Shown here piece after piece: positions 49,165 through 55,434 of a stretch of DNA of 64,000 bases (the first letter of the stretch is position 1; every line of letters begins with the position of its first letter). This DNA is from Anaerobaca lacustris (GTDB lineage: Bacteria; Planctomycetota; Phycisphaerae; Sedimentisphaerales; Anaerobacaceae): assembly GCF_030012215.1 (NCBI RefSeq), contig NZ_JASCXX010000015.1:1-64000 (forward strand). Direction: 5' to 3'. The notes beneath the pieces were generated by a model, which saw only the letters and a list, made by a program, of their open reading frames with translations, did not search any database and was not told the DNA's origin. The translations under genes and the position numbers were made by a program.

Positions 49165-49992
49165 TCAAACGGCTGCCGGGCCTTGTCGGGACGTCGAGAG
49201 TGCGGCCTTGACCTGGGTGAGAAAGGCAGAGACTTCTGCGATCGCCTTGCCGGGGTTGTGCAAATTGGCCTCGATCATGCCCACAATCCGCGAACCGATG
49301 ATGGCGCCGTCGGCGCCGGCGTCGGCCACCGCCCTGGCGTGCTCGGGCTTGCTGATGCCGAACCCGACGCAGACCGGCACGTTCGTGAGCGACTTGAGCC
49401 GGCGGACCAGGTCTTCGACGCTGTCGGAGAGGGCGTCCCGGCTGCCGGTTACGCCGAGCACGCTGACCGTGTAGATGAACCCCGTTGTCTGGGCGGCGAT
49501 CTGTTTCATCCGCTCGGGCGAGGTGTTGGGCGTGACCATGAAGACGCTGTCCAGCCCGGCGTCGCGGACCGAGCCGAGCACCTCGTCGGCGTCGTCGATC
49601 GTCATGTCGGCTATCAGGACGCTGTTGACGCCGGCGTCGCGGGCATCGCGGAAGAACTCGGCCTTGCCATAGTGACAGACGAGATTGTAGTACATCAGCA
49701 AGCCGATGGGGATATCCCGGTGCTGCTTGACCTGCCGGATGAACTCCATCGCCCGCCGCACATTCATGCCGCTGCGCACCGCGCGGATGTCGGCCTTCTG
49801 AATGGTCGGGCCGTCGGCGATTGGGTCCGAGAAGGGGATGCCGAGTTCGAGAACATCGGCGCCGGCGTCGATGGCGGCCTGGACCAGGGCCAGGCTGGTG
49901 TCGAAGTCCGGGTCGCCGACGACGAAGAACGGGATCAGCGCCGCGCGTTTCTGCCGGCTCAGTTCGGAAAACACGTCACGATAGGATTTCAT
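49165..49992 (-). CDS. trpA: Tryptophan synthase alpha subunit
   Basis: TrpA cleaves indole-3-glycerol phosphate to indole and glyceraldehyde-3-phosphate inside the alpha2-beta2 complex. The 275-residue protein has LELGIPFSDPIADGPTIQ with the catalytic Glu and Asp, and the GFGISKPEHA phosphate loop. It is the last gene of the trp operon; a palindromic spacer repeat separates it from trpB. Confidence 0.96.
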   Translation of the reverse strand: MKSYRDVFSELSRQKRAALIPFFVVGDPDFDTSLALVQAAIDAGADVLELGIPFSDPIADGPTIQKADIRAVRSGMNVRRAMEFIRQVKQHRDIPIGLLMYYNLVCHYGKAEFFRDARDAGVNSVLIADMTIDDADEVLGSVRDAGLDSVFMVTPNTSPERMKQIAAQTTGFIYTVSVLGVTGSRDALSDSVEDLVRRLKSLTNVPVCVGFGISKPEHARAVADAGADGAIIGSRIVGMIEANLHNPGKAIAEVSAFLTQVKAALSTSRQGPAAV

Positions 49993-50022: not shown

Positions 50023-50054
50023 ATAGGTCCTATAGGTCCGATGGGACCTATTCC
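50023..50054. repeat. Short palindromic spacer repeat, copy 2
   Basis: ATAGGTCC occurs twice (50023-50030 and 50032-50039), the second forming a perfect hairpin with GGACCTAT (50044-50051, loop GATG). It lies between trpB and trpA. Confidence 0.75.
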
Positions 50055-51223
50055 AACGGTCGATGCTGTTCTACGATGCCGACGTCTTTGTCGCCCCGGC
50101 CGGAAAGATTGACCATGACGATGGTCTCCGGCCCCAGCGTGCCCTTCAGGCCGGCCACGTACGCCAGCGCGTGCGTGCTCTCCAGCGCCGGCAGGATGCC
50201 TTCGATGCGCGCCAGAAGCCCGAACGTCTCCAGCACCTCCGCATCGTCGGCGGCGACGTAGCGGGCCCGGCCGATGTCACTGAGATGGCAATGCTCCGGG
50301 CCGACCCCCGGATAGTCCAGGCCGGCGCTGATCGACTCGGTGTCCATGACCTGGCCTTCGGCATCCTGGAGCAGATAGGACCGGGCGCCGTGAAGGACGC
50401 CGGGCGTGCCCGCGACGATACTGGCGGCATGCTTGCCCGTGGCGACCCCCTGGCCGCCGGCTTCGACGCCGATCAGCTCGACGTCCGGGTCGTCGATGAA
50501 GTGGGCGAAGGCCCCGATGGCATTGCTGCCGCCGCCGACGCAGGCGACCACCATATCGGGCAGGCGGCCCGTCTGGTCGAGAAACTGTTGACGCGCCTCC
50601 CGGCTGATGCAGCTCTGGAAATGCCGGACGATGGTCGGGTAAGGATGCGGCCCGGCCGCCGTGCCGAACAGATAGAATGTGTCGGTCACGTGCGACGTCC
50701 AGTACCGCAACGCATCGTTGATCGCATCCTTCAGCGTGCCGGTGCCGCCCTCCACCGGTATGACTTCCGCGCCGCAGAGCTTCATCTTGTGCACGTTGAC
50801 GCTCTGCCGCTCGACGTCGGTGACGCCCATGAAGATCTTCGTCTCCATTCCGAGCAGGGCCCCGATCATCGCCGTCGCCAGGCCGTGCTGGCCCGCGCCG
50901 GTCTCGGCGATCAGTTTGCTCTTGCCCATGTGCTTGGCGAGCAGGCCCTGGCCGAGTGTGTTGTTGACCTTATGCGCGCCGCCGTGGAGCAGGTCCTCCC
51001 GTTTGAGATAGACCTTGAACCCGACGTGCTCGCTGAATCGCTTCGCGTGGTACAGCGGAGTGGGGCGGCCGGCGTAATGCGTCGAGAGTTCGGCCAGTTC
51101 CGCCACGAATGCCGGATCGTCGCGAAATCGGTCGAACGCCTCCTCCAATTCCTCCAGCACCGGGATGAGCACCTCGGGCACGTAATAGCCGCCGTAGTCG
51201 CCGTATCTGCCTCTGTGTTTCAT
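50048..51223 (-). CDS. trpB: Tryptophan synthase beta subunit
   Basis: TrpB condenses indole with serine using PLP. From ATG 51223 it is 391 residues. It begins [13 protein letters not shown], has the PLP lysine in [13 protein letters not shown], and the [13 protein letters not shown] phosphate loop. Sequence type is the canonical TrpB1. The frame is open upstream to 51250, but the family N-terminus starts at MKHRGRYG. The last bases overlap a palindromic repeat. Confidence 0.96.
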
Positions 51224-51240
51224 GCGGAGTACCCTTCTTG

Positions 51241-51279
51241 ATAAGTCCAATAGGTCCTATAGGTTGTATCGGACCTATG
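51241..51279. repeat. Short palindromic spacer repeat, copy 3
   Basis: ATAGGTCC (51250-51257) and GGACCTAT (51271-51278) with a 13-base loop, between trpF and trpB. Confidence 0.7.
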
Positions 51280-51898
51280 CTCTGAGATGTCGTATATTGT
51301 CGAAAAGCTGCTGCATCTTGCGGTGGTCCTTCTTGCCGGGCGAGGCCTCGACCCCGCTACACACGTCGATCCCATAGACACCCAGTTCGACGGCCGCGAC
51401 CGCGTTGTCCGGATTGATCCCGCCGGCCAGGAAGATCCGCTTGCCGACGTGGCCGATGATGTTCCAGTTGAACGTCAGTCCCGTGCCCCCGTACTTGCTC
51501 GGATCGTACGCGTCGAACAGGATGGCGTCGGTGAAGAAGCCGTCCGCCTGCTGGATATCGCTGCTGTCCTTGACCCGGATCGCCTTCATCGTCTTGGGGC
51601 TGTCGTAGGCCAGCCATCGGCAGAACTCGGCGTTCTCATCGCCGTGCAACTGAATCCAGTCGAGCTGGCACTGGCTGGCGATCTCCCGCGTCTCGTCGAG
51701 CGTGCTGTTGACGAATACCCCCGCAATGTCAATGAAGGCAGGCAGCCTGTTGACGATCCGCGTGGCCTCTTCCGGCCGGATATAGCGCGGGCTCTTCGGA
51801 TAGAAATTGAATCCGATCAGATCGGCGCCCATTTCCATTGCCGCAAGGGCATCGTCGTAGTTCGTGATTCCGCAGATTTTAACTTTGGGTATCAACAT
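51275..51898 (-). CDS. trpF: Phosphoribosylanthranilate isomerase
   Basis: TrpF catalyses the Amadori rearrangement of PRA to CdRP. The 207-residue protein starts VKICGITNYDDALAAMEMGA with the catalytic Cys, has GFNFYPKSPRYI, the catalytic Asp in ILFDAYD, and FLAGGINPDNAVAAVE. It follows trpD in the operon. The next enzyme of the pathway, TrpC, is not encoded here. Confidence 0.96.
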   Translation of the reverse strand: MLIPKVKICGITNYDDALAAMEMGADLIGFNFYPKSPRYIRPEEATRIVNRLPAFIDIAGVFVNSTLDETREIASQCQLDWIQLHGDENAEFCRWLAYDSPKTMKAIRVKDSSDIQQADGFFTDAILFDAYDPSKYGGTGLTFNWNIIGHVGKRIFLAGGINPDNAVAAVELGVYGIDVCSGVEASPGKKDHRKMQQLFDNIRHLRA

Positions 51899-51926: not shown

Positions 51927-52946
51927 TCACCCTTTGTTGGAAACCTCGATCAGTGTTTCAAGACAGTGCATGGCCTTCCCGTCGTCGATCGAATACTCGG
52001 CCAGCGGGAGGGCCTGTGGAAAGCTGTCCACCAGACCGGCGACGATGATGGCGGCTGCCGCGTTGAGGACGACGATGTCGCGACGGGCCCCGCGCTCCTT
52101 GCCGTTGAGGATGCTGCGGACCAGGGCGGCGTTGGTGATGGCATCGCCGCTGCCCAATTGGTCGATGGACGCGCCGGTGAAGCCGAATTCCGCCGGATCG
52201 AGTTCCATCGACTCGATGCGCCCGTCGCGCAGCTCGACGATCTTCGTTTTGCCCAGCAGGCTGATCTCGTCCATGCCCTGGCCGTGAACGACCATCGCGC
52301 GTCTGGCCCCCAGCAGCTTGAGCGTCTCGGCGATCCGCCCGAGCAACTCGGCGTCGGCCACTCCCATCACCTGGGCGGTGACCCGCGCCGGGTTGGCCAG
52401 CGGCCCCAGAATGTTGAACGCGGTCCGGAAGTCCAGGCTCTTGCGGATCGGCTGGACGAAGCGCATCGCCGGATGGAACTTCGGGGCGAACATGAATCCG
52501 ATGTGGGCCCGCCGGATGCACTCGGCGACCACGTCCGGACCGGGGTCGATGTTGACACCCAGTTCGTCGAGTACGTCGGCCGAGCCGCACTTGCTGGTGA
52601 TGCCCCGGTTGCCGTGCTTGGCCACGTAAACCCCCGCCCCGGCCGCGACCAGCGCGGCGGCGGTCGAGATGTTGAAGGTCTTGATCGTCGCGCCGCCGGT
52701 GCCGCAGGTATCGACCAGATTGTCGATTCCCACGTTGACCGGCACGGCGTGATCGCGCAGCGACTGCGCCAGGCCCGCAATCTCGGCCGAAGTGGCCCGC
52801 TTCATTCGCATCATGGCCAGAAACGCCGCGATCTGGACCTCCGTGACCTCGCCCTCGAAGATCTTGTCTTGCAGGGCCTTGGCCTGCTCGAACGTGAGGT
52901 CTCTGCCGTCCAGGATGATTTCCAGGTACTCCGTGATTGTCGCCAT
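51927..52946 (-). CDS. trpD: Anthranilate phosphoribosyltransferase
   Basis: TrpD joins anthranilate with PRPP. The 339-residue protein has the PRPP-binding DTCGTGGATIKTFNISTAAA and GNRGITSKCGSADVLDELG, and the anthranilate-site segments NILGPLANPA and VVHGQGMDEI. Length is normal. It starts three bases after the trpG stop, indicating coupling. Confidence 0.97.
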   Translation of the reverse strand: MATITEYLEIILDGRDLTFEQAKALQDKIFEGEVTEVQIAAFLAMMRMKRATSAEIAGLAQSLRDHAVPVNVGIDNLVDTCGTGGATIKTFNISTAAALVAAGAGVYVAKHGNRGITSKCGSADVLDELGVNIDPGPDVVAECIRRAHIGFMFAPKFHPAMRFVQPIRKSLDFRTAFNILGPLANPARVTAQVMGVADAELLGRIAETLKLLGARRAMVVHGQGMDEISLLGKTKIVELRDGRIESMELDPAEFGFTGASIDQLGSGDAITNAALVRSILNGKERGARRDIVVLNAAAAIIVAGLVDSFPQALPLAEYSIDDGKAMHCLETLIEVSNKG

Positions 52947-52949
52947 GGC

Positions 52950-53561
52950 TTAGCTCCCTACCGTTTGTCTCTTCTGGGCCGCAATGTGCAGGATATTCTG
53001 GATGATCTTGCCCCCGGCCGGGGTCAGAATGCTCTCGGGGTGGAACTGGACGCCGTAGATGGGCAGGTCCTTGTGCTGGACGCCCATCACGATGTCCTCG
53101 AAGTCGGCCGTCTTCTCCAGGCAGTCGGGCAATCGCACCGCCGCCAGACTATGGTACCGCCCGGCCTGGAGCGGATTTTCGATGCCCGCAAACAAACCTT
53201 TCTCGTTGTGACTGACGCGCGAGGGCTTGCCGTGCATCGGCTCCGGCGCATGGCCGACCTTGCCGCCGAAATGCTGCACGATGATCTGGTGTCCCAGGCA
53301 GACGCCAAAGACCGGCAGCTTGTCCTGGAAGTACGCCAGGGCGGCCAGGGACACGCCGGCGGTGTCCGGGTTGCCCGGTCCCGGCGAGATCACCAGCAGA
53401 TCGGGATCGAACTCAACGGATACCGCGATCAGGTCGTCGAGACGCGTGTCGGCGCGGTAGACGCGGGTCACGCACCGACGCTTGCCGAAATCGTCCACGA
53501 GGTTGTACGTGAACGAGTCGAAGTTGTCGATGAACAGGACTCTGGTATCGTTCGTCTGCAT
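52950..53561 (-). CDS. trpG: Anthranilate synthase component II (glutamine amidotransferase)
   Basis: TrpG supplies ammonia to TrpE for anthranilate synthesis. The 203-residue protein has VLFIDNFDSFTYNLVD, the nucleophile Cys in FGVCLGHQIIVQHFGG, and the His-Glu pair in GVQFHPESILTPAG. Such subunits are sometimes shared with aminodeoxychorismate synthase (PabA), but the operon context points to tryptophan. Confidence 0.95.
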   Translation of the reverse strand: MQTNDTRVLFIDNFDSFTYNLVDDFGKRRCVTRVYRADTRLDDLIAVSVEFDPDLLVISPGPGNPDTAGVSLAALAYFQDKLPVFGVCLGHQIIVQHFGGKVGHAPEPMHGKPSRVSHNEKGLFAGIENPLQAGRYHSLAAVRLPDCLEKTADFEDIVMGVQHKDLPIYGVQFHPESILTPAGGKIIQNILHIAAQKRQTVGS

Positions 53562-53602: not shown

Positions 53603-55198
53603 CTACTGTCCTCGAATGGCCCGGATGCAGGAGCGGGCCTTGTGCTCGGTCTCTTCGAATTCGGTCTTCGGGACGCTGTCGTGCACGATCCCGGCGCCGG
53701 CGCGGACGTAGGCGGTGCGGTCGCGGACCTGGAGGCTGCGGATCGTGATGCAACTGTCGAACTGCCCATCCACCGTCAGGTACATGACGGCGCCGCCGTA
53801 GTAGCCCCGCTTGTTCTTTTCGAGCCGGCGGATGATCTTCATCGCCTCGATCTTCGGTGCGCCCGTGAGCGTCCCCATATTCATCGTCGCCAGATACGCG
53901 CTCAAGGCATCGAGATCGGGCCGAAGCGTGCCCTTGACGTTGCTGACCAGATGCTGAACCGATTCGTACTTCTCGACCGTCAGCAGTTCGTTGACGACCC
54001 GGCTGCCCGGATCGGCCACCCGGGCGATGTCGTTTCGCGCCAGGTCTACCAGCATCATGTGCTCGGCCAGTTCCTTGCGGTCCAGCTTCAGCTCCGCTTC
54101 GTAGCGAAAGTCGGTGTCGGGGTCGATCTCACCGTCGATGCGTCCTCGCGGCTTGGTGCCCGCGATCGGTCGGATCTCGACGTGCCGCGGTCCGGTCCCG
54201 CTGACCCGCAGGTTCAGTTCGGGGCTGGAGCCCATCAGCACCGCGCTGGGCATGTTCAGATAGAACATGTACGGCGACGGGTTCAGCTTGCGCAGCCGCT
54301 TGTAGACGTCCAGCGGCTCGTCCGGGCAGGGCTCGGTGATCGTCCGGCTCAGCACGACCTGGAAGATGTCCCCGTCGAGGATGTGCTGCTTGGCCGTGCG
54401 AACCATGTCTTCGTATTCCGCCTGGCTGGTGTCGGTCGAGGCGGGCGCCAGAGGGCCGTCGTGGCGTTTGCCCTTGGGCGGCTGGAATCGGGCCATATTG
54501 AAATAGTAGTCGAAGGCGTCCTGGGCCTCGGTCACGGCCGCCTCGTGGTCGCCGTTGGTGACGATGCAGTTGACGACGACATAGCCCTGGTTGTTCTCGT
54601 GGTCCATCAGGAAGATGTTGTCGGCGAAGAACAACTCGTAGTCCGGATTGCCCAGCACGTCCTGGTCGCTGGCCGGGAGCCTCTCGAACTGGTCCACGAA
54701 GTCGTAGCTGAGGGCCCCGAGCAGCCCGCAAGTGACCCGGAAGGGCTTGCTGGCCAGCCGGAAGGCGAACGCCACCGCGCGAAGCACGTCCATCTGGTTG
54801 GTGCTGCGAAGCCGCGTTTGCTCGTCCATTGTCCCTTGGGTCGGCCGGATCCGCCCGACGATCCGGTCCGGCTCGAACGTCACCGATTCGCAGAAGGCGA
54901 ACCGCGTTTCGTCGCCGGCCAGGTAGCCGAGCATCCGCTTGCCCGTCTTGCTCAGCGCCTGGATGCGGAAGTCCGATCTCGTGCCGGTCAGGTACAGGGC
55001 CGGCCGGGCGGTCCCGAAACTCAGCGCGCTCGTGCCCGCCAGGTACTCGCGGGATTCCAGCAGGCAGCAGTTCTTGGCCCGGCCGTAGTCCGTCAGTTTC
55101 GCAAAGAAATCAAGGGGATCGCCGATGTCGATCCGCTTGACGATCGGAACGATCTGGCCCGGCTCGGCGCTGTGTATGATCTGTCGATAATCGTCCAT
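53603..55198 (-). CDS. trpE: Anthranilate synthase component I
   Basis: TrpE turns chorismate and ammonia into anthranilate. The 531-residue protein has the chorismate-binding features IFQVVLSRTI, SPYMFYLNMPSAVLMGSSPE, RPIAGTKPRGR, EHMMLVDLARNDIARVA and GTLTGAPKIEAM. It is the first structural gene of the operon, 59 bases after the attenuator U-tract. The N-terminal region may bind Trp for feedback inhibition, but the LLES motif appears as CLLESREY, consistent with the Trp-sensitive type. Confidence 0.96.
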   Translation of the reverse strand: MDDYRQIIHSAEPGQIVPIVKRIDIGDPLDFFAKLTDYGRAKNCCLLESREYLAGTSALSFGTARPALYLTGTRSDFRIQALSKTGKRMLGYLAGDETRFAFCESVTFEPDRIVGRIRPTQGTMDEQTRLRSTNQMDVLRAVAFAFRLASKPFRVTCGLLGALSYDFVDQFERLPASDQDVLGNPDYELFFADNIFLMDHENNQGYVVVNCIVTNGDHEAAVTEAQDAFDYYFNMARFQPPKGKRHDGPLAPASTDTSQAEYEDMVRTAKQHILDGDIFQVVLSRTITEPCPDEPLDVYKRLRKLNPSPYMFYLNMPSAVLMGSSPELNLRVSGTGPRHVEIRPIAGTKPRGRIDGEIDPDTDFRYEAELKLDRKELAEHMMLVDLARNDIARVADPGSRVVNELLTVEKYESVQHLVSNVKGTLRPDLDALSAYLATMNMGTLTGAPKIEAMKIIRRLEKNKRGYYGGAVMYLTVDGQFDSCITIRSLQVRDRTAYVRAGAGIVHDSVPKTEFEETEHKARSCIRAIRGQ

Positions 55199-55249: not shown

Positions 55250-55287
55250 AAAAAAAAACGCAGCCTGCTGGTTCCAACAGGCTGCGT
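55250..55287 (-). terminator. trp attenuator (intrinsic terminator)
   Basis: On the minus strand ACGCAGCCTG pairs perfectly with CAGGCTGCGT around a ten-base loop that can pair further, followed by about nine U. It lies between the leader ORF and trpE. GGCGAGCG at the end of the leader ORF (plus 55326-55333) can pair in part with CGCAGCC of the 5' arm as a candidate antiterminator. Confidence 0.92.
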
Positions 55288-55321
55288 CAAAAATCATTCT
55301 TTGCGGTTTTTCTATGGCAAA

Positions 55322-55396
55322 TTATCGCTCGCCCGTCGGATATGTCTCCTTGGGCCACCACCAATAGTTAAAGCTAAAGCGATAGTTCTGCCTCAT
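55322..55396 (-). CDS. trpL: trp leader peptide (24 residues, three tandem Trp codons)
   Basis: ATG 55396 to TAA 55322-55324 encodes 24 residues including NYRFSFNYWWWPKE: residues 12-14 are three consecutive TGG codons, and residues 5-11 hold two Tyr and two Phe. The ORF lies between a good promoter and the attenuator ahead of trpE, the arrangement of ribosome-mediated attenuation. Low Trp-tRNA should stall the ribosome at codons 12-14, leave the end of the ORF free to pair with the terminator arm, and permit readthrough. The ATG begins only nine bases after the -10 box, so the mRNA would have a 5' leader of about three bases or none. Confidence 0.88.
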   Translation of the reverse strand: MRQNYRFSFNYWWWPKETYPTGER

Positions 55397-55405
55397 AATC
55401 AATAT

Positions 55406-55434
55406 AGTATACCCGCCTTCCGGCGTTCCGTCAA
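55406..55434 (-). promoter_or_regulatory. trp operon promoter
   Basis: Minus strand: TTGACG (55429-55434), 17 bases, TATACT (55406-55411). The predicted start at about 55399 is nearly at the leader-peptide ATG (55396). Confidence 0.85.

Follow-up and report, generated by a model that had tools for sequence, protein, structure and literature searches.

A predicted ribosome-mediated trp attenuator with a near-leaderless trpL in Anaerobaca lacustris and its relatives in the Sedimentisphaerales

How does Anaerobaca lacustris, a planctomycete with a genome of 5.7 Mb, adjust expression of its tryptophan biosynthesis operon? The question is raised by the first 64,000 nt of contig NZ_JASCXX010000015.1 (assembly GCF_030012215.1), the stretch analyzed here and called the window. 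It harbors the consecutive genes trpE-trpG-trpD-trpF-trpB-trpA (order assigned via Pfam), directly preceded by a short open reading frame (ORF) with tandem Trp codons, and an intrinsic terminator is located before the first structural gene. The gene ispD is found 78 nt upstream of the leader region on the same strand. The gene trpC lies outside this operon on another contig (G000:C6:163019-163801), with no WW leader in the fetched flank. A sequence-only reading of the region had proposed a trp attenuator in a likely planctomycete. Its description of the promoter, the 9-base gap, the 24-residue ORF, the three TGG codons and the terminator is exact to the base, and the host assignment agrees with the nearest relatives of TrpE, which are encoded on metagenome-assembled genomes (MAGs) titled Phycisphaerae, Phycisphaerales or Sedimentisphaerales. 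A TrpE with 72% identity is present on a contig titled Candidatus Kuenenia stuttgartiensis (L186), probably a mislabelled MAG. The features of the locus, all on the minus strand, are as follows.

55406-55434, minus strand: sigma70-type promoter (-35 box TTGACG at 55434-55429, 17-nt spacer, -10 box TATACT at 55411-55406)
55397-55405, minus strand: 9-nt gap between -10 box and ATG, holding the predicted transcription start, which would leave approx. 0-4 nt of 5′ untranslated sequence; no Shine-Dalgarno (SD) sequence
55322-55396, minus strand: trpL leader ORF, MRQNYRFSFNYWWWPKETYPTGER*, 24 codons (ATG at 55396, stop codon 55324-55322)
55355-55363, minus strand: TGG-TGG-TGG, Trp codons 12-14, the putative stall site (from the sequence and the leaders of relatives)
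55379-55391, minus strand: segment 1 outer (GCAGA..TATCGC, codons 2-6; from the MFE fold, covariation and swap test)
55347-55355, minus strand: segment 1 inner (GCCC..GGA, overlapping the last Trp codon), predicted to pair with segment 2 (fold, covariation, RNAalifold, swap)
55326-55340, minus strand: segment 2, the 5′ half of the antiterminator, TCCGACGGGC + GAGCG, within the last trpL codons
55317-55328, minus strand: 3′ partner of segment 1 outer, GCGATAATTTGC, spanning the trpL stop codon (fold, covariation)
55273-55286, minus strand: segment 3, CGCAGCCTGTTGGA, 5′ arm of the terminator and 3′ half of the antiterminator
55250-55288, minus strand: intrinsic terminator (stem 55288-55257, 14 bp with the 4-nt loop GAAC; nine T at 55258-55250)
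53603-55198, minus strand: trpE, anthranilate synthase component I (PF00425/PF04715; ATG at 55198)
52950-53561, minus strand: trpG (PF00117)
51927-52946, minus strand: trpD (PF00591/PF02885)
51275-51898, minus strand: trpF (PF00697)
50048-51250, minus strand: trpB (PF00291 and gene order)
49165-49992, minus strand: trpA (PF00290)

The Trp leader is a general property of the order. TrpE was searched in the genus, the family and the order, and 600 nt upstream of each gene were extracted. All 118 Sedimentisphaerales trpE genes with enough upstream sequence are preceded by a Trp-codon leader (115 detected by scan and three, G115, G118 and G119, by eye), and a terminator-like hairpin follows in each of the 115 leaders scored; the few leaders with a poor automatic hairpin choice were excluded from the alignments. 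The usual form of the peptide is MRQINRKNTGNWWWPEG. The Trp codons are the best-conserved part of the leader ORF across the order, with two to five per leader in 114 cases and a single one in two members of one genus (G118, G119). The run mostly reads WWW, in others WWR; one genus includes two species with YWRR. In several lineages CGN Arg codons substitute for leader Trp codons (TGG to CGG), down to YWRR; these leaders (G114-G119, loci L096, L113, L097, L098, L122 and L100; G303 and G199, loci L216 and L218) may have retained Trp sensing or may also sense Arg. From several fairly complete genomes of family f5 and part of f6 (e.g. G131, G134, G143, G146, G147), no TrpE of the window's type was recovered at E 1e-90 to 1e-80; they may use a different TrpE or have lost the ability to make Trp.

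The layout is not a product of chance. A WW-containing short ORF alone occurs in 113 of the 118 real regions, in 62 of 2360 dinucleotide-shuffled upstream regions and in one of 118 reverse strands. Combined with a sigma70-like promoter 4-12 nt before the ATG, it was retrieved from one of the 2360 shuffled regions, and with a terminator added from none; the same, deliberately strict scan finds the promoter combination in 50 of the 118 real regions and the full combination in 21. A covariance model of the leader (R1) detects one copy in the genome, at 55251-55396 (E 8e-23), with no further copies, and matches 115 of 161 genomes of the order. The search for a phage origin of the leader gave no match.

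The leader RNA of the window folds much more stably than its dinucleotide shuffles (z = -5.0), and the antiterminator is formed by UCCGACGGGC(GAGCG) with CGCAGCCUGUUGGA, i.e. UCCGACGGGC with GCCUGUUGGA plus GCG with CGC. The sequence-only reading had named GGCGAGCG at the end of the ORF as candidate antiterminator. This stretch does belong to the pairing; as the entire element it was rejected and replaced by a longer pairing with segment 3, in which the 5′ strand is TCCGACGGGC + GAGCG (55340-55326). The anti-antiterminator consists of two further pairings arranged in two tiers, segment 1 outer with 55328-55317 and segment 1 inner with segment 2. In alignment A1 (66 leaders, counted on the named structures), 85.8% of the cells of the 1:2 and 3:4 structure are paired (slid controls 34-51%) and 91% of those of antiterminator 2:3 (24-42%), percentages that lean toward the window because the structure was drawn from its own fold; shuffles and segment swaps depend less on it. 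For 1:2 and 3:4, 104 cells are changed on both sides, compared to 43.4 +/- 5.7 after shuffling, and 19 of 31 pairs show such changes. An independent RNAalifold prediction recovers the terminator as well as the inner 1:2 hairpin. In an alignment-free approach, swapping segments between species weakened all four pairings, the energy of 2:3 going from -20.0 kcal/mol with its own partner to -15.5 kcal/mol with those of other families, and that of 3:4 from -22.5 to -13.7 kcal/mol.

Covariation of the antiterminator is mostly one-sided (eight pairs via wobble changes, three with both sides changed), mainly G-C/G-U/A-U exchanges on one side, and several measures are not far above the shuffles. One-sided variation is expected since segment 3 must serve two partners; as most of the changes are wobbles, the support from covariation is moderate. 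The antiterminator is mutually exclusive with the terminator, and in silico a ribosome on the Trp codons blocks anti-antiterminator 1:2. The alignment across relatives that had been proposed as a check of the sequence-only reading thus shows the Trp codons and both alternative pairings conserved over the order.

All features of a ribosome-mediated trp attenuator (trpL class) that can be examined in the sequence were found at this locus: the ORF, its Trp codons, the promoter position, the terminator, the alternative pairings and their conservation can be read from sequence and comparison. As neither TrpR nor TRAP was found in the genome (see below), a ribosome-mediated transcription attenuator is very probably the best explanation for the control of trpEGDFBA. 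The proposed course of events, in which the precise point of initiation, the translation of trpL and the response to Trp are predicted, is as follows. RNA synthesis would begin a few bases ahead of the trpL start codon, and a ribosome would load at the extreme 5′ end of the growing transcript with no SD sequence to guide it. With little charged tRNA-Trp, it would stall at codons 12-14 and cover segment 1, leaving segment 2 (UCCGACGGGCGAGCG) free to pair with the emerging segment 3 (CGCAGCCUGUUGGA); no terminator would form, and trpE to trpA would be transcribed. When tRNA-Trp is ample, the ribosome would proceed to the stop codon and occupy segment 2, segments 3 and 4 would pair, and transcription would end in the U tract. 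Should ribosome loading fail, the inner and outer parts of segment 1 could pair with segment 2, and termination would also be favored.

Folding of the leaders in these states was modeled with a 31-nt ribosome footprint, with everything 5′ of it likewise blocked, a modeling choice. The median upstream capture of segment 3 is 0.73 with the ribosome on the first Trp codon, 0.37 with the ribosome on the stop codon and 0.46 without a ribosome, and 100 of 107 leaders hold segment 3 upstream more in the starved than in the stop state. Within this model the contrast between starved and replete states is clear. The respective values for the window are 0.79, 0.20 and 0.66; since segment 3 is thus predicted to be 66% upstream-paired without a ribosome, the untranslated state of the window is not clearly terminating. 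In the leaders of family f7 (G149-G160), the antiterminator is predicted without a ribosome, so untranslated RNA would read through, unlike in the enteric model.

The start of the leader transcript is the most unusual part of the layout. Of the 112 relatives scored, 109 have a promoter at the equivalent position, as found by a scan that did not insist on A as the second base of the -10 box (insisting on it drops 28 relatives). Spacer length is 17 nt in 108 of the 112 leaders, and the distance from the -10 box to the ATG ranges from 6 to 13 nt (n = 112), with nine nt as the mode (60/112). In 57 of the 112, the -10 box reads TTTAAT or TCTAAT, with T or C instead of the usual A as second base and with a strict 17-nt spacer. 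Transcription from sigma70 promoters starts approx. 6-8 nt past the -10 box; combined with the 6-13-nt gap, this gives a predicted 5′ untranslated region (UTR) of approx. 0-5 nt, and the transcript is predicted to start at most a few nt from the trpL ATG. Between -16 and -5 of trpL, none of 114 leaders has an SD-like 4-mer, partly because the -10 box occupies that stretch, whereas 74 of 114 carry one before trpE (background of 12-nt windows, 12%). Promoter and leader persist regardless of the upstream gene: of 80 named loci, only 11 have ispD. Beyond the order, Trp leaders also occur in two further families of the class, whose TrpE relatives show 41-44% identity; eight of nine leaders read there have the promoter 7-9 nt before the ATG, and two of the nine have a single Trp codon.

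The near-leaderless layout, held across the order and in other families of the class, might itself be a functional part of the switch, a proposal that we regard as conceivable and rather unlikely. It would imply that ribosomes load without SD sequence at the 5′ terminus once the first RNA bases have emerged, that they are coupled to the polymerase from codon 1 onward, and that the attenuator monitors both charged tRNA-Trp and the leaderless initiation pathway. Genome-wide, the promoter-plus-ATG pattern yielded five near-leaderless genes, compared to two for a control trinucleotide, both small counts. Further candidates, named from their translations only, whose start is no more than approx. 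10 nt from a good -10 box are a truB-like gene (L231, G000:C28:49921) and a gene for a ribbon-helix-helix-like protein (L227, G000:C8:69801).

Alternatively, the main transcription start could lie upstream and trpL be translated by ordinary initiation from a normal 5′ UTR. No strong terminator separates ispD from the leader, so read-through from ispD could produce a longer 5′ UTR. It is improbable that this is the main route: the SD-like sequence is missing before trpL and frequent before trpE, spacer and promoter-ATG distance are narrowly fixed, and the promoter is kept where ispD is missing. A different objection concerns what is sensed. The sequence-only reading had suggested that Tyr5, Phe7, Phe9 and Tyr11, which do precede the Trp run as described, might make the leader responsive to other aromatic tRNAs. 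At least three Phe/Tyr residues before the run occur in 18 of 114 leaders, including the window's genus and a second genus (FFGYWW), and Phe plus Tyr account for 10.8% of residues compared to 7.2% in nucleotide shuffles. On the other hand, only 53 of 114 leaders have any Phe or Tyr among the four positions preceding the run, many have none at all, e.g. MKQINRKNTGNWWWPEG, a form common among the relatives, Tyr5 of the genus is fixed by the outer RNA stem (TATCGC pairs with GCGATA), and a stall before codon 12 would cover less of segment 1. Additional sensing of tRNA-Phe/Tyr is hence quite improbable; as a conserved, general feature it was rejected on the residue counts, the enrichment being limited to some lineages and the four residues being genus-specific. 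A role in the window's genus and the FFGYWW genus is possible.

Control of the terminator by an RNA-binding protein, a T-box or a riboswitch, with the ORF being incidental, would likewise place a terminator before trpE, as TRAP or T-box control does. This explanation is very remote: no T-box or other Rfam family is detected at the locus at the Rfam gathering threshold, the genome has no PF02081 (TRAP) match, TrpR was not found in it, and the ORF is most conserved exactly in its Trp codons. The terminator alone could also serve to end transcription of ispD, next to a chance short ORF. The probability of this reading is close to negligible, as it is refuted by conservation: a conserved promoter lies between ispD and the terminator, and the Trp leader and the alternative pairings are retained. 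Attenuation by a translating ribosome, as the sequence-only reading had proposed, is thus supported by the conserved Trp codons, terminator and alternative pairings, with covariation.

In the classical model of Yanofsky for E. coli trpL, Trp codons in the leader peptide are combined with four RNA segments forming the alternatives 1:2, 2:3 and 3:4, and the planctomycete leader shares both. In E. coli, trpL is preceded by a long 5′ UTR that includes an SD sequence, and by a TrpR operator; the planctomycete leader has no SD sequence and a short predicted UTR, and no TrpR was found, which sets it apart from its enteric counterpart. Closer in layout is the Alphaproteobacterium Sinorhizobium meliloti, where the transcript rnTrpL starts with the trpL ATG and Trp does not repress transcription (PMC7298713). 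Its trpE(G) attenuator likewise lies before trpE, with tandem Trp codons, terminator and antiterminator (PMC7298713); it differs in its 14-residue peptide, in preceding trpE(G) rather than a trpEGDFBA operon, and in its mapped start site, that of the planctomycete being predicted. Unlike in S. meliloti, the Anaerobaca analysis yielded no evidence for functions of the leader RNA or peptide in trans. The trpL1 leader of Streptomyces lividans is also encoded on a leaderless transcript, with 18 residues including WWW and a terminator before trpE (PMC8079986), there in Actinobacteria and upstream of a monocistronic trpE. The short promoter-ATG distance noted in the sequence-only reading is conserved over the order; the contrast drawn there with enteric trpL holds but was overstated, as leaderless trpL had already been described in S. 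meliloti and Streptomyces.

Trp attenuators have been predicted in Actinobacteria (Streptomyces/Corynebacterium; PMC1262725). At the time of a 2010 survey, leader peptide systems were known only in Proteobacteria and Actinobacteria, to which the survey added Firmicutes (PMC2965389). For attenuation in Planctomycetes, general leader-gene statistics are available (PMC4833913); no description of a trp attenuator in Planctomycetota was found in a literature search that covered few subscription papers, and an earlier prediction is possible. Since the features of an attenuator were found, leaderless precedents exist and the literature search was negative, the locus is regarded as a known kind of switch in a lineage for which no description was found. 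A leaderless trpL itself is not new; the novelty lies in the lineage of the host and in how strictly the near-leaderless layout is kept. Classical trp attenuation in near-leaderless form would thus extend throughout the order and part of the class in Planctomycetota. With strict spacing in more than 100 species, it becomes testable whether leaderless initiation tightens ribosome-polymerase coupling. Model R1 provides a ready RNA family for a locus at which Rfam release 15 recognizes none. With such leaders in Alphaproteobacteria, Actinobacteria and, as predicted here, in Phycisphaerae, a start at the ATG would seem to be a solution that attenuators have adopted repeatedly rather than an oddity.
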